Source: Polynucleobacter sp. Adler-ghost (GTDB lineage Bacteria; Pseudomonadota; Gammaproteobacteria; Burkholderiales; Burkholderiaceae). From it: a DNA stretch of 64,000 bases. The notes under the pieces are model-generated. The model was not told the DNA's origin. It worked only from the letters and a program-made list of their open reading frames with translations, and did no database searches. The translations under genes and the position numbers were made by a program. Within the stretch, counting starts at the first letter, position 1, and every line of letters begins with the position of its first letter. Below, in pieces: positions 32,304 to 37,964 of this stretch. The stretch is from the NCBI RefSeq assembly GCF_018688495.1, contig NZ_CP061320.1:1336586-1400585 (forward strand), in the 5' to 3' direction.

Positions 32304-33298
32304 TTTTTCTCCCCTATAGCAACTGGAGCAGCGGGCGCTGTAAGGGCAGGATCTGCCACTGTTCCATATATTGCTGGATAAGCGGGTGCAATGTTGTGCT
32401 TCACACCCCATAAATACCAGTTATCAACTACTGTTCCAGTTAACAAGATTCCAATACCACCTGTTAGCGGGGTAAGTACTGCAAACCACCAAGCCCAACG
32501 GTGAATGGATTCCATGGTTGCATTGAAACCCATGGTCCATCTCCAAAATAGTGCAGCGCGCTCTGAAGCTGTACCGCGATCAACAATTTGCTCGATTTCT
32601 CGCTCGCCACCAAATCGGCTTACCGCCAGAATAGTTGCTCCGTGCATTGCGAATAACAAAACGGATCCATACAAGAAAACAATCGAGAGCATATGGAAGG
32701 GGTTGTAAAACAAATTACCGTAGCGAATCGAAAATGCAGATACCCAATCTAGGTGGGAGAAAATTCCGAATGGTACTGCTTCACTCCAGCTGCCCATTAA
32801 GACAGGTCGAATGAGGCCGAGTACTAAAAATAACCAGATTGCGGAAGCAAATGCCCAAGGAACATGGTTACCCATACCCAGTGCTTGTGCACGACGGAAA
32901 GTTCTAAGCCACCACAACATAATGGAAATCGTAGAAAAGAGACCCACAATAAGCCACCAGCCGCCCTCATTTAGAGGTGGGAAGCTAAGGCCATATTTTG
33001 GCGAGGGAGCATCCAAGGAAAGCCAAAACAGTTTTTTGACAAACTGGAGTGGATTCCATCCTACCTGGGCCAGCATATTCATACCGATGATGAAAAATGC
33101 AGTCATGCCAAAGATAAGTGATGCGACGCCAAGTCGTCCCAGGTAAACCGGTCCGAGCTGAGCATTGCCCAGACGCCCCAGTAAATGGCTAAAGCCAATT
33201 GAGCGAGTTCGCTCACGCATATCGTATGCGTTTATGGGCACGCCATGACTAGCAGGTCCAGTTACTTGAGTTTGAGTAAATAAGTTTTGATATTCCAT
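32300..33298 (-). CDS. pufM: Photosynthetic reaction centre subunit M
   Basis: The M subunit binds bacteriochlorophylls, bacteriopheophytin, QA and the non-heme iron together with L. The 332-aa protein has five membrane helices. The characteristic [20 protein letters not shown] and [20 protein letters not shown] stretches include the special-pair His region. GGAGA precedes the ATG, and 32 bp separate it from pufL. Confidence 0.98.
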
Positions 33299-33330
33299 GA
33301 TGCTCTCCGCATATTTAAATCAGCTGAAAA

Positions 33331-34155
33331 CTACCCCCAGATAGGCAAATTCAACCACCACGTCCACCACTCAGGCCATCCTTTTGTCCAGAAAGGCCCG
33401 CTGATCACGATACAAACTGCACTCCAAAATACGGCTGCTAATGCCAGGAATAGACCAAGACGATGAATTCCCAAGGTTCCTACTGAATAACCAATAATGT
33501 CTCTGAAGAAGGTATCTTCATGCTCTGGGGTTTTTACAGTCTGACCTGGAGCAGGATTTGTAGAAGACAAAATCAAAGCGCCATGCAGCGCAAGCGCTAG
33601 TGTTGTGGTGAAAAATAAGGTCACCGCAATCATGTGCGCCGGGTTGTAATGAAAGTGCAGATACTGATAACCCGTATTGGATACCCAATCTAGGTGACTC
33701 AATATTCCGTATGGGAATCCATATCCCCAGGCACCCATCAGTACCGGACGAATGACCACCAAGGTAAAGTACGCAAAAATTGCCATGCTAAAGGCCAGCG
33801 GCACATGAAGGCCCATACCCAGTTTTCTGGAGATCTCTACCTCGCGCATAGCCCATGATCCGAATGCGCCCAATGCACAGATCGTAATGATCTGCCAAAG
33901 TCCACCCTCCATCATGGGAGCCGGTCCAAGACCATACTTTAGGTCTGGCGGGGCAATATTGATTTGCCAGGGATTAAATACCCCTGCGTGAGAGGCTCCC
34001 CAGAAAATCATTGCAGTCCCGAGAAACGTAAAGAAGACTGTAGTGACACCAAAAAATCCCACGTAAAACGGGCCTACCCAGAAATCAAATAGATCTCCAC
34101 CGATAAGCGTTCCGCCGCGTACGCGGTATTTCTTTTCAAAGTTGAGCATGGCCAT
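33331..34155 (-). CDS. pufL: Photosynthetic reaction centre subunit L
   Basis: The L subunit pairs with M to carry the electron-transfer cofactors and binds QB. The 274-aa sequence shows the opening [20 protein letters not shown], and [20 protein letters not shown] with [13 protein letters not shown], both diagnostic. AAGGAG lies 6 bp before ATG 34155. Two hairpins separate it from pufA. Confidence 0.98.
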
Positions 34156-34171
34156 TTAGCGCTCCTTGCAC

Positions 34172-34190
34172 TATGAGATTTTTTCTCATA
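34172..34190 (-). other. Second, AT-rich hairpin upstream of pufL
   Basis: TATGAGA (34172-34178) and TCTCATA (34184-34190) form a 7-bp inverted repeat with a 5-base homopolymer loop. It lies directly before the pufL ribosome-binding site and downstream of the larger pufA hairpin. It could influence pufL translation or mRNA decay. Confidence 0.5.
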
Positions 34191-34204
34191 ATTAATTAAT
34201 ATTG

Positions 34205-34240
34205 CGTAGACGAATTACTATCTCTAGAAATTCGTCTACG
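34205..34240 (-). other. Intercistronic pufA-pufL hairpin
   Basis: A perfect 12-bp inverted repeat, CGTAGACGAATT (34205-34216) and AATTCGTCTACG (34229-34240), flanks a 12-nt loop just after the pufA stop. In Rhodobacter a hairpin at this place blocks 3-prime decay so that the pufBA segment outlives pufLM, giving excess LH1 over reaction centre. The structure is seen directly; the role is inferred by analogy. Confidence 0.75.
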
Positions 34241-34254
34241 GTTGGTACATCTAC

Positions 34255-34431
34255 TTACTTCTTCGCTGCAGAAATTGCTGCTTTGTACTGCTCTTGACTC
34301 ATACCATCCAACCATTTGTATTGAACAGTGCTCAATAAAATGAGATGAATCATCGCTGCCAAAGCAAAGAGAAAAACTCCTTGCGCAACCATTGCACGTA
34401 GTGGGTCGTATAACTTCCAAATTCTCCACAT
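34255..34431 (-). CDS. pufA: Light-harvesting complex 1 alpha subunit
   Basis: This 58-aa gene was read by hand. The protein begins [20 protein letters not shown], the LH1 alpha signature, followed by a single membrane helix with His29 in AAMIHLIL as bacteriochlorophyll ligand, then [13 protein letters not shown] lies 9 bp before the ATG. The stop TAA is at 34255-34257. It is separated from pufB by a 73-codon gene, which is not the usual arrangement. Confidence 0.97.
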
Positions 34432-34441
34432 AATATTTCTC

Positions 34442-34663
34442 CTAATTTAAGTAAGACATAAAACCGTAAACACCTGATTCCACTGATTTGAAGAAGGATC
34501 CCCCATCAGATCCAGAAAATAACCACGCTTTCTGGGAAGCAGGCAATACAACCAAAAAGAGAGCCGCCATAAAGATCACTACATAGCTAATTACAAAAAT
34601 AATCTTGAACGACAATGTATCGGGAAGATGATTCTTATTCATTAAATCCGTATTGGTCTTCAT
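34442..34663 (-). CDS. Unidentified 73-aa single-TM protein between pufB and pufA
   Basis: The frame has AAGGAG 8 bp before ATG 34663, better than most genes here, and its stop lies 10 bp before pufA, next to the pufA ribosome-binding site. The product has a polar N-terminus with two Lys in MNKN, one membrane helix at about 19-40 ([19 protein letters not shown]), then a Gly/Ser/Phe-rich tail ([19 protein letters not shown]). The only His (residue 12) is outside the helix, so it lacks the buried His ligand of LH1 alpha and beta subunits. It may be a minor RC-LH1 component comparable in size to PufX, PufQ or protein W, but I see no clear homology. A Met at residue 8 is a weaker start. Confidence 0.8.
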
Positions 34664-34713
34664 ATAAAACACTCCTTTTAGTTGAATCTATTTACTATGT
34701 ACTTACTGCTGCA

Positions 34714-34860
34714 TCAAAAGAACCATGGACGCCATGCCCATACAAGTATGTGCGCGACGACTGCGATAGCAGTAAATCCAAGCAAACCTTGCACATAAAA
34801 TGCATGGAATTCTTGAGCTTCTGCATCGGTAAGCCCAGATATAGATCTGTTTTCACTCAT
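34714..34860 (-). CDS. pufB: Light-harvesting complex 1 beta subunit
   Basis: This 48-aa gene was read by hand. The protein runs [20 protein letters not shown], then [20 protein letters not shown] and WAWRPWFF. His37 in VVAHILVW is the bacteriochlorophyll ligand and His19 is the usual second conserved His; the C-terminal WRPW is diagnostic for LH beta chains. AGGAG lies 9 bp upstream of the ATG. It is the first puf gene after bchZ, separated by 123 bp with stem-loops. Confidence 0.97.
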
Positions 34861-34880
34861 GATGACTACTCCTTGAAACT

Positions 34881-34923
34881 GACCTTACGGTCTTTTCTAC
34901 ATCACCCCTGTAGATTTGGGGAT
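34881..34923 (-). other. Stem-loops in the pufB leader
   Basis: GACCTTACGGTC (34881-34892) is a short inverted repeat that on the minus-strand transcript forms a GACC stem with a GUAA (GNRA) tetraloop, about 20 bases before the pufB start. ATCACCCC (34901-34908) faces GGGGAT (34918-34923). A third hairpin, GCCTT/AAGGC, lies near 34950, just after bchZ. They may protect the 5-prime end of a processed puf mRNA. Confidence 0.45.
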
Positions 34924-34983
34924 ACAGCTTTACTACGCCATATACGTTTAGCCTTTTAATAAGGCAATTTCTTTTATCAAAAG

Positions 34984-36441
34984 TCATACTGTCTCTCCAC
35001 TCATGTGGGATAGCGTTGACTTTTGAACACAGTCGACTGTCACTCTTTCAATGTTTTGTTTGCGAGCCTCAAACTCAGCTTCATCACGAATTCTTTTTGC
35101 AGCTGATATTTGTGTGAGCACGGGCTGATTACTGATTAATTTGTTCATTAATGCTTGAGCTTCTTCTTCCCAAGGAATGGATGCGATCTGGCCCTGTATT
35201 CTTGCCGGGGTTGGATCCACCTTGTCCATCTCTGTGCCTAAAGGTAGGATGTGAAAAAGAGCATCAAATAATGAGTTACACACTTCTTGAATCAGATATA
35301 CCGCTCCGGAATAGCCCATAAATGGAGTTCCGGTATGCCGACGAATAATCGCACCAGGAAAGGAAGCGGGGATATAGGAAAAACGTGCATTCACTTCGCT
35401 GCCGTACATCCGTTCGTTATAGCTACCAAACATAACCAATGGTGTTTTTTTCTGAACCAGATCTCTAATTTCAACGTTATTCGTTTTATTACCTGGCAAT
35501 CTAGAAACAGCAAAGTTACAAGGAAGACCCATTTCCTCTTCTAGGAAATTTCGCACGCCGCGGGTATAGGTTTCGTTTGCAACGATGGCAAAGCTGGCGG
35601 TACCAAAGAAGTCTTGGGTTACAGAGCGCCATAAATCCCATGCTGGCTTGAGTGTGGTGTGCTTTTCTTTTTCAATAAAGCCTTCCACATCGATCTCACA
35701 AAGTTCGCCAAGCTTACGAAGGAAGGCTGTAGTGGATTGCATCCCAATTGGCGCTTGCAAATAAGGGCGCTCTAGCGTCTCACACAACAAGCGTCCATAT
35801 TCGCGATACATACAAATATTGACATCTGCATTGACTAACTTGGCAACATCGGCAAGATGAGAGCTCAATGGGAATACCATATTGACCTCTGCACCAATAC
35901 CTTCTACTAAACGTCTAATTTCTGCAAGGTCACTATATAAATTAAAGCTGCCATAGGCTGGTCCAATAATATTGACCCTTGGCTTTTCGCCCTCTGCTCT
36001 TTCGCGCTTTGGAATCTTTTTGAGGCCGTACTCTGTCCATAACCAATTCATGGCACGATTTGCGCACTGCCACTGATCTTCATCAATGGTTCTTGGTAAG
36101 AAACGCTTAATTCCAGTTCCTTCTGGTGTCACACCGCCGCCAATCATTTCAGCAATAGAGCCTGTAACTACTACTGCTGGTAAATTGGGATCGAGCACCT
36201 TATGGGCCCGCTTCATGGATTCTTCTGTGCCTTCTCTACCGAGCTGCTCTTCTGCTAATCCAGTAACCACAATCGGCAACTCATGCGGAGGCAATGCATC
36301 GGTGTAATGCAAGACTGAAGTCACTGGTAAATTTTCACAACCGACAGGTCCATCAATGACAACCTGCAGCCCCTTGATAGCTGTAAAGACATACACAGCC
36401 CCCCAATAGCCGCCAGCGCGATCGTGATCAATGACTAGCAT
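34984..36441 (-). CDS. bchZ: Chlorophyllide a reductase subunit Z
   Basis: BchZ is the NifK-like subunit of chlorophyllide reductase (COR), which reduces ring B to give the bacteriochlorin. The 485-aa protein has [20 protein letters not shown] near the start, [15 protein letters not shown] with a ligand Cys, and the [15 protein letters not shown]-terminal region with a DUF-like helper domain. Its ATG shares one base with the bchY stop (TAATG). Confidence 0.97.
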
Positions 36442-37964
36442 TAGCCCATCTCCTCCGCTTTTTGCTTAGCGATTGCCTTTTCTAACTTGCGGCGAACTTC
36501 AGCTTTGAATTCAGGGCGATCTACCGGCATGTCTTCCCACACACCAGTTGTGTGCTCGGTACCAACGCCTTCAAAGAATTCAGTCATGTTATTGAATCGC
36601 TCTTTGTTAGCTAGAGCTGCATTAATAACCTGGGCTAATGATCCCGCACCTGCGGCACCCATTAGCGGACGTGCAGAAATTAAATTCGTGAAATACAAGG
36701 ACGGTATGGCTAATTCTTTTGCTTTTTGAACTACTGGTGTTGTGCCAATAACCAAGTCCGGAGAAAACTCTTTCATTGCAGCAAGGTCTTGCTCAAGAGA
36801 AGCGCGGTATCGGACATGTATGCCACGGGATTCAAGCCAATCTAAGTCTTTGCTGCTCCAAATTGTTTTTGGACAAGCTGTTCCAACATAGCGAACATCT
36901 GCCCCACTCTCAACCAATAGTCGAGCAACCAGCAACTCTGATCCCTCGTAACCACTGACAGTAATTCGACCTTTGATGGGCTTAGCATCTAAGGCCGCCT
37001 TAATCATTGGTAGAAATTTTGACTTTGCATTGCCAATTTTTTCAGCACTGACACCACAGGCCTTGCCAATTTCATCAAGCCAGTCAGCTGTACCGTCATA
37101 TCCTATTGGTGCAGAGCCAACAATTTGTCTGCCTGCAGTCTGAAACTCACGAATACTAGCTGTATAAAAAGGATGAATAGCCGCAACCACTTTTGAATCC
37201 ATCGCTTGATACAGCTCGCGCCATTCTCTAGTGGGAACAACAGTTCCGACAGCCAAATCCATGGGCTCCAGCATCATCCCAATACTGATAGGGTCTACCG
37301 GGAACATTTCTCCAAGTAAAGTGATGGTTGGCTTCTCTGATACACCGTTACGAGGAGCTTGAACTGGTCCGCTTTCAATTTCATTCCGCGCATAGCGCAA
37401 CATAGCGCTGGCTAAAACATCTTTTGCCTCGGCATGGGTCGGAACTCCAAAGCCAGGAACATCGATACCAATGATGCGAACACCATTAATTTCTTTTGGC
37501 AGCAATTGAAGTGGTACACCACTTGCAGTCGGTACGCATAAATTAATAATGACGATGGCGTCGTAAAGCTCAGGGTTAGCCTCTTTGTAAACTGCTTCAC
37601 GAATGTCTTCGAATAACTTGCCAGTTACTAAGGATTCAGAATTAAATGGCACATAACCTACGCTGCGACGGGCACCATAAAAATGCGAGGTAAAAGTTAA
37701 GCCATAAACGCAACAAGCTGAACCTGACAGAATGGTGGATGTGCGACGCATTCTTAAGCCAACTCGTAAAGATCCAAATGCAGGGCACATACTCTGCGGT
37801 TGGTCATGAGGCCCCTTTGGGTAATCTTGAGCGTACTGCCCCAAGATCTCGCTCTTACTAGCATTTTTTGCTGCAGCGAGTAATCCTTCTGCGCCAGAAT
37901 GGCAAGCAATCCCCGATACATCGGCAGATGCATTTTGAATAGGAATTACTTTAGATGATTTCAT
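36441..37964 (-). CDS. bchY: Chlorophyllide a reductase subunit Y
   Basis: BchY is the NifD-like subunit of COR. The 507-aa protein has [31 protein letters not shown] and [12 protein letters not shown], whose cysteines fit the NB-type cluster ligands. It lies 14 bp downstream of bchX. Confidence 0.97.

Follow-up and report, generated by a model that had tools for sequence, protein, structure and literature searches.

The puf locus and the frame between pufB and pufA

The window considered here is a 64,000-nt stretch of the genome of Polynucleobacter sp. Adler-ghost, in which the puf genes lie on the minus strand. The neighbour genes bchZ (34984..36441) and pufL (33331..34155) provide the operon context for pufB (34714..34860) and pufA (34255..34431), whose products pass the NCBIfam cut-offs for LH1 beta and LH1 alpha, respectively. 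PufB is short (48 aa) and terminates at WRPWFF without a C-terminal tail. The two genes are separated by a third frame, here termed X (34442..34663, minus strand), which runs for 73 codons from an ATG at 34663 to a TAG at 34444-34442. It is preceded by an AAGGAG ribosome-binding site (34672..34677) located 8 nt 5' of the ATG, and its stop shares bases with the AGGAG of pufA (34439..34443; TAGGAG), the ATG of which (34431) lies 10 nt past the stop of X. The first-pass annotation had described this frame with the same ribosome-binding site and the same spacings, and the coordinates agree.

The X protein contains a single strongly hydrophobic stretch (residues about 19-41; 34541..34609), which aligns with the transmembrane (TM) helix of LH1 beta and lacks a buried His, as had been claimed. 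Where PufB carries its BChl-ligating His, X has Val38 in the aligned column (34550..34552; residue number counted by hand). AlphaFold2 places helices at residues 15-48 and 57-72 (mean pLDDT 64, pTM 0.34); the predicted TM helix is sound, whereas the tail helix, modelled at low confidence, is only suggested. The tail itself (residues 57-72; 34448..34495) is amphipathic, with a hydrophobic moment of 0.41 in the window (0.2% of shuffles as high) and of 0.32 in Rvi. gelatinosus (3.3%).

A protein search across 101 genomes, the source genome included, gave 26 hits with an E-value of at most 0.01, and 25 of them show the order pufB-X-pufA. One candidate (L026, in G066) was rejected as an unrelated frame of >300 aa in a stretch where no puf gene was found. 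Taking the reaction-centre family PF00124 as denominator (present in 48 of 399 Burkholderiales genomes and in 31 of 398 of the phylum), and leaving out two genomes of the order in which the reaction-centre gene is cut at a contig end (G239, G358) and two loci in which the contig stops before pufB (L031, L068), 44 decidable loci are obtained within the order. Of these, 36 carry X between pufB and pufA, each time with a short PufB (47-50 aa); five have a long, tailed PufB (76-78 aa) and no X, and three a short PufB and no X but an X-like ORF between bchZ and pufB. Outside the order, X is found between the two genes at none of 26 loci (of 27; G813 was left out, its scores being the same as those of G812). 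The view that pufB and pufA are normally adjacent therefore stands outside the order but fails within it, where X proves conserved across other betaproteobacterial puf operons. In the eight X-less genomes of the order (G089, G238, G311, G341, G224, G128, G247, G278), a search with the X profile yields, at the puf locus, PufB or the ORF between bchZ and pufB and, besides these, nothing better than E 0.095.

A scan of named genomes retained 80 of 111 confirmed loci, all 80 with pufB-X-pufA; as it relied on the tail motif [GA]VY[SGT]FMS[YH]L, tail conservation in these 80 loci is biased. Carriers include Polynucleobacter, Roseateles, Rubrivivax gelatinosus, R. benzoatilyticus, Rivibacter, Piscinibacter and Pseudorhodoferax. 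In Polynucleobacter bastaniensis (L095), X is 96% identical, and the gene was located between pufB and pufA in Rvi. gelatinosus (L159, L163) and in R. depolymerans (L152, 74 codons). The two collections together provide 137 X loci, some genomes being counted twice, and 109 distinct sequences. Two loci recorded as Thermoflexus hugenholtzii (L115) and Klebsiella pneumoniae (L168) carry pufB-X-pufA operons resembling those of betaproteobacteria and are probably misnamed metagenome bins.

By place and family, X is the gene known as ORF2 in Rubrivivax gelatinosus and as ORF74 in Roseateles depolymerans, and the claim that such a gene had not been described for this group does not hold. The available text of PMC12817894, citing Nagashima 1994, places two frames of unknown function in the Rvi. 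gelatinosus puf operon, ORF1 ahead of pufB and ORF2 ahead of pufA. There, ORF2 was compared with PufA and PufA2 (10.1-14.5% with PufA2) and rejected as the origin of pufA2; no comparison with PufB was found in that text (PMC12817894). For Roseateles, the locus tag of ORF74 falls between the tags of pufB and pufA, and a function of ORF74 is not given in the portion available (PMC10037100).

Two adjoining RNA hairpins lie immediately 5' of the pufB ribosome-binding site, both in the window (34881-34913, minus strand) and at many other loci, with the consensus CCGCGC-loop-GCGCGG followed by GGCC-GNRA-GGCC. The GNRA hairpin occurs 5' of pufB at 106 of 167 loci, as opposed to 13 of 675 control windows in bchZ. 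In an alignment of 42 leaders, two-sided changes are seen at 10/10 pairs, 94.7% of cells are paired and 0/500 shuffles score as high on all five measures, counts which lean towards structure because the 42 were picked by eye, from 58 non-redundant leaders, for having both hairpins. Rfam returned no match on window positions 33000-36500. The small ORF at this place in the window, and perhaps also ORF1 of Rvi. gelatinosus, may be the hairpin element read as a frame.

X is under purifying selection, as examined along the lines proposed by the first-pass annotation: its median pairwise dN/dS is 0.149 (113 pairs with usable dS), as compared to 0.105 for pufB (127 pairs; 18 close loci and the Nei-Gojobori method in both cases). 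Due to the bias of the motif-based scan, conservation of the tail was recomputed with two sets, the 36 loci of the order sample and L001-L009. Across the latter, pN/pS is 0.25 overall and falls from 0.41 at the N-terminus to 0.25 in the TM segment, 0.18 in the linker and 0.13 in the tail. The C-terminal V-Y-x-[FLV]-[MI]-S is kept in the 36 order-sample proteins, with V, Y and S invariant. In this sample of 36, column entropy is about equal in tail (1.06 bits) and linker (1.09 bits), so that the tail stands out by pN/pS only. Given its recurrence at the same place in 25 of 101 genomes, the median dN/dS and the kept C-terminus, X is a genuine gene, beyond chance.

Relation of X to the LH1 beta polypeptide

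Searches of Pfam, NCBIfam and the PDB with the single X sequence of the window returned noise only (CbiN 0.13, YmgF 0.016, PDB none). The LH1 beta family PF00556 likewise does not match the X of the window and matches two of 19 family members, at best with E 0.32, below cut-off. A family profile was therefore needed to reveal the relation to PufB. When the PDB was searched with a profile of 19 X proteins, 32 distinct sequences were returned at E up to 10, the top 30 of which are light-harvesting chains (LH1, LH2, B808-866), with an LH1 beta chain as the best match (E 1.1e-11); the last two are an exchanger (E 2.2).

A profile of the 109 distinct X sequences scores a median of 52 bits (maximum 87) on 17 of the 19 long PufB sequences (L076 and L081 left out), a value reached by 0/200 shuffles in which columns were permuted within the N-terminal, TM and post-TM blocks (largest shuffled median 9.6). 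The same profile scores 26 bits on short betaproteobacterial PufB and 18 bits on other short PufB (each 0/200 shuffles), whereas the PufA control scores 4.1 bits and is matched by 19/200 shuffles. Profile-profile comparison with hhalign gives E 5e-23 over 67 columns for X against long PufB, 8e-10 against short PufB and 0.09 against PufA. The alignment of X to long PufB needs no internal gaps, and the top pair reaches 50% identity over 74 columns. As the X of the window shares only 15% identity over 47 columns with its own PufB, the case leans on the X family and not on the window protein. For the tree, built on 86 rows and 74 columns, X was thinned to 30 of 109 sequences and short PufB to 27 of 78. 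A single branch with support 95/93 sets the 30 X rows off from the rest; 24 of 82 inner branches are starred and the finer order is loose.

X is thus almost certainly a paralogue of PufB. It has in common with long PufB a gapless full-length homology, the TM helix, the WRxWLPG segment, the tail and the junction with pufA; it differs from PufB by lacking the BChl-ligating His and the N-terminal SGLT..EA.EFH motif and by falling below the Pfam cut-off. None of the 137 X proteins shows [ST]GL[TS] in the first 25 residues. Although the ORF itself was already known, we did not find this identity in print: among the titles and abstract openings listed, with the subscription literature mostly outside reach, none announces ORF2 or ORF74 as a PufB paralogue.

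Two irregular pufB genes were encountered. The PufB of Piscinibacter aquaticus (L171:3754-3915) ends in VLVWAPAPLALN instead of WRPWL, indicating a frameshift or sequencing error near the C-terminus, and L145 contains an extra pufB-like match downstream of the reaction-centre genes.

PufQ, gap subunits and other readings of X

Small ORFs are also present at the position of pufQ, between bchZ and pufB (L070-L074, L078, L081, L091, L093, L094, L029, L037, L040; 12 of these 13 were used, the ORF of L073 being left out). Like X, PufQ (PF05398) and these ORFs are small one-TM puf proteins, raising the question of whether X is the betaproteobacterial PufQ, that is, not an LH1 subunit but a factor for regulation and pigment handling that acts on the flow of tetrapyrroles (ferrochelatase, delivery of chlorophyllide). 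Similarity to the pufQ-position ORFs is clear: the X profile scores a median of 22 bits on those from loci outside the order and from genus g65 (0/200 shuffles), and hhalign gives 3e-9. Furthermore, the three X-less order loci with a short PufB have such an ORF, as opposed to none of 29 examined X loci when probed with the X profile. A profile of these ORFs finds, at E 0.1, only X in G000, G321, G444, G123 and G199 (150 of 189 candidates scored in G321 and G444), but it misses X in G108 and also finds PufB in G380. Conservation of the TM segment and C-terminus of PufQ would fit the same reading, as would the control of the pigment branchpoint in organisms without PufQ, which is left open in the text available of PMC5725709.

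X is, however, far closer to PufB than to any PufQ, and in the tree the pufQ-position ORFs are set apart from X on another branch with support 100/99. The link to canonical PufQ (nine loci, family f95) is weak, with 8.3 bits (0/200 shuffles as high) and an hhalign probability of 16% (E 0.0016). PF05398 does not match the X of the window at E up to 10 and does not appear in the list of 11 families obtained for 19 members, and the place of X between pufB and pufA is not that of pufQ. Taken together, these observations make a PufQ role of X the less likely reading, though a serious one. The notion that X is a PufQ that has moved, first suggested by upstream matches in L029, L071, L091 and others, was rejected since tree and profile scores favour PufB.

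The pufQ-position ORFs are themselves related to long PufB (hhalign 2e-7, 0/100 shuffles as high), and PufQ-like proteins may therefore have arisen from LH1 beta. A derivation of canonical PufQ from PufB gained no significant support, the canonical profile scoring 3.5 bits on long PufB (4/100 shuffles as high; hhalign probability 0.9%) and 1.4 bits on short betaproteobacterial PufB (14/100 shuffles as high).

PufX, protein W, PufY/protein-U and the gamma subunits are small one-TM, non-pigment proteins of RC-LH1, and Pfam contains a PufX family. With one TM helix, no His and a gene in the LH1 operon, X could be a single-copy gap subunit comparable to PufX or protein W, leaving the LH1 ring open for the exchange of quinones, and a ligand-less beta-like subunit could conceivably terminate the ring. 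Yet neither PufX in Pfam nor any protein W, gamma or PufY chain in the PDB profile search is matched by X at E up to 10, though a kinship of fold without sequence similarity is conceivable. In addition, the location in the pufBA segment, not after pufLM, would predict an LH1-like over an RC-like dosage, and the gap function appears improbable on these grounds.

A different matter is whether X still binds pigment as an ordinary LH1 beta variant, using Gln or another residue as ligand. The BChl-ligating His is present in 110/110 PufB and in 0/109 distinct X sequences, where Gln is commonest in its column (65/109; 28/36 in the order sample) and could in principle ligate a chlorin; the WRxW segment is also mostly retained. 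However, Val occurs in 15/109, as in the window, and the remainder include L, I, K, T, A, G and S, which together with the uniform loss of the N-terminal motif renders this variant very unlikely. With Gln so frequent, a pigment-free protein is the safest assumption for the V, L and I lineages, that of the window included. Finally, X can hardly be a mere translational spacer or leader tuning pufA synthesis: coupling through the bases shared between its stop and the pufA ribosome-binding site is likely, but a dN/dS of 0.15, amino-acid constraint that peaks at the C-terminus and homology to PufB all argue against it.

Origin of X and its proposed place at the LH1 ring

A tandem duplication of pufB as the origin of X is shown as far as sequence comparison can show it. 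A long pufB would have been duplicated in an ancestor of the photosynthetic Burkholderiales-type betaproteobacteria. The downstream copy, X, would have retained the pufA junction and the post-TM segment (WLPGAEG and the amphipathic tail) and lost the BChl-ligating His along with the N-terminal SGLTxxEAxEFH motif; the upstream copy, PufB, would have retained pigment binding and lost the tail. At 118 of 137 loci, 9-12 nt separate the stop of X from the start of pufA; for long PufB, the corresponding spacing is 10-14 nt in 11 loci and 19 nt in one (start located in 12 of 19 long-PufB loci). In all 137 X loci, some genomes counted twice, the adjoining PufB is tailless (47-50 aa). A short PufB also occurs in the absence of X, at 12 of 26 loci beyond the order and at three of 44 within it. 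Few independent events underlie the association of X with tail loss: a phylogenetic test had a single independent pair on supported branches and no power. At L029, L037 and L040, a gap of 73 nt separates the short PufB from pufA, which roughly matches the missing tail in length; no tail remnant is recognisable there in three frames.

In Rsp. rubrum LH1, Gly51, Pro52 and Tyr55 of beta, just past the TM helix, form bonds with the adjacent beta and alpha at the periplasmic face, according to the part of PMC8454704 available. By alignment, the corresponding post-TM segment reads WLPGAEG in most X proteins and WLFSGSDGG in the window. As the partner PufB stops short of this segment, the alignment suggests that X provides post-TM contacts or a docking tail in trans.

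Expression is described for Roseateles depolymerans, where, in the available text, ORF74 is reported as co-transcribed with pufB and pufA in the major 1-kb puf mRNA (PMC10037100). In the SP70 sigma-factor mutant, the three loci hit hardest are pufA, pufB and ORF74, with 0.71%, 1.09% and 2.34% of transcripts remaining, respectively (PMC10037100). X would be synthesised together with the LH1 polypeptides and, like beta, be inserted N-in. By homology with PufB, the C-terminus of X would face the periplasm; for that of PufQ, PMC5725709 predicts the cytoplasm. It would then dock beside PufA in LH1, without a BChl ligand in the lineage of the window, its periplasmic tail giving in trans what long PufB bears in cis. 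The likeliest result would be that X aids LH1 or RC-LH1 assembly, or takes up a place without pigment within or beside the ring.

The first-pass annotation had proposed an accessory one-TM protein of the LH1 operon, a proposal supported in part: the protein is conserved, under purifying selection and without a Pfam match to PufX or PufQ, but its earlier notice as an ORF and its kinship with PufB had been missed. Judged from sequence, a non-antenna accessory role is very probable. The narrower proposal, a pigment-free beta-like LH1 accessory that acts in assembly or ring architecture and is possibly a counterpart of PufQ, is favoured with some reserve, and chances are about even that X stays associated with LH1 and does not act transiently in the manner of PufQ. 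No chain near-identical to Rvi. gelatinosus PufB is present in the PDB copy searched, so a cryo-EM structure of the RC-LH1 of this species would be informative at once.

In the available text of PMC12817894, an ORF reported in 1994 from a model purple bacterium is still of unknown function in 2025; it now has an identity from which direct predictions follow. As a tentative broader picture, the LH1 beta gene may repeatedly have yielded ligand-less proteins, namely X, the pufQ-position ORFs and perhaps PufQ, and betaproteobacterial LH1 may comprise, besides alpha and a beta without tail, a beta-like third component that carries no pigment and is made at LH1-like levels, with PufB keeping the pigment and X the periplasmic tail. 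The identity of X touches the origin of PufQ-like proteins and the supply of pigment in purple bacteria without PufQ, and it bears on the purpose of the C-terminal tail in long LH1 beta polypeptides.
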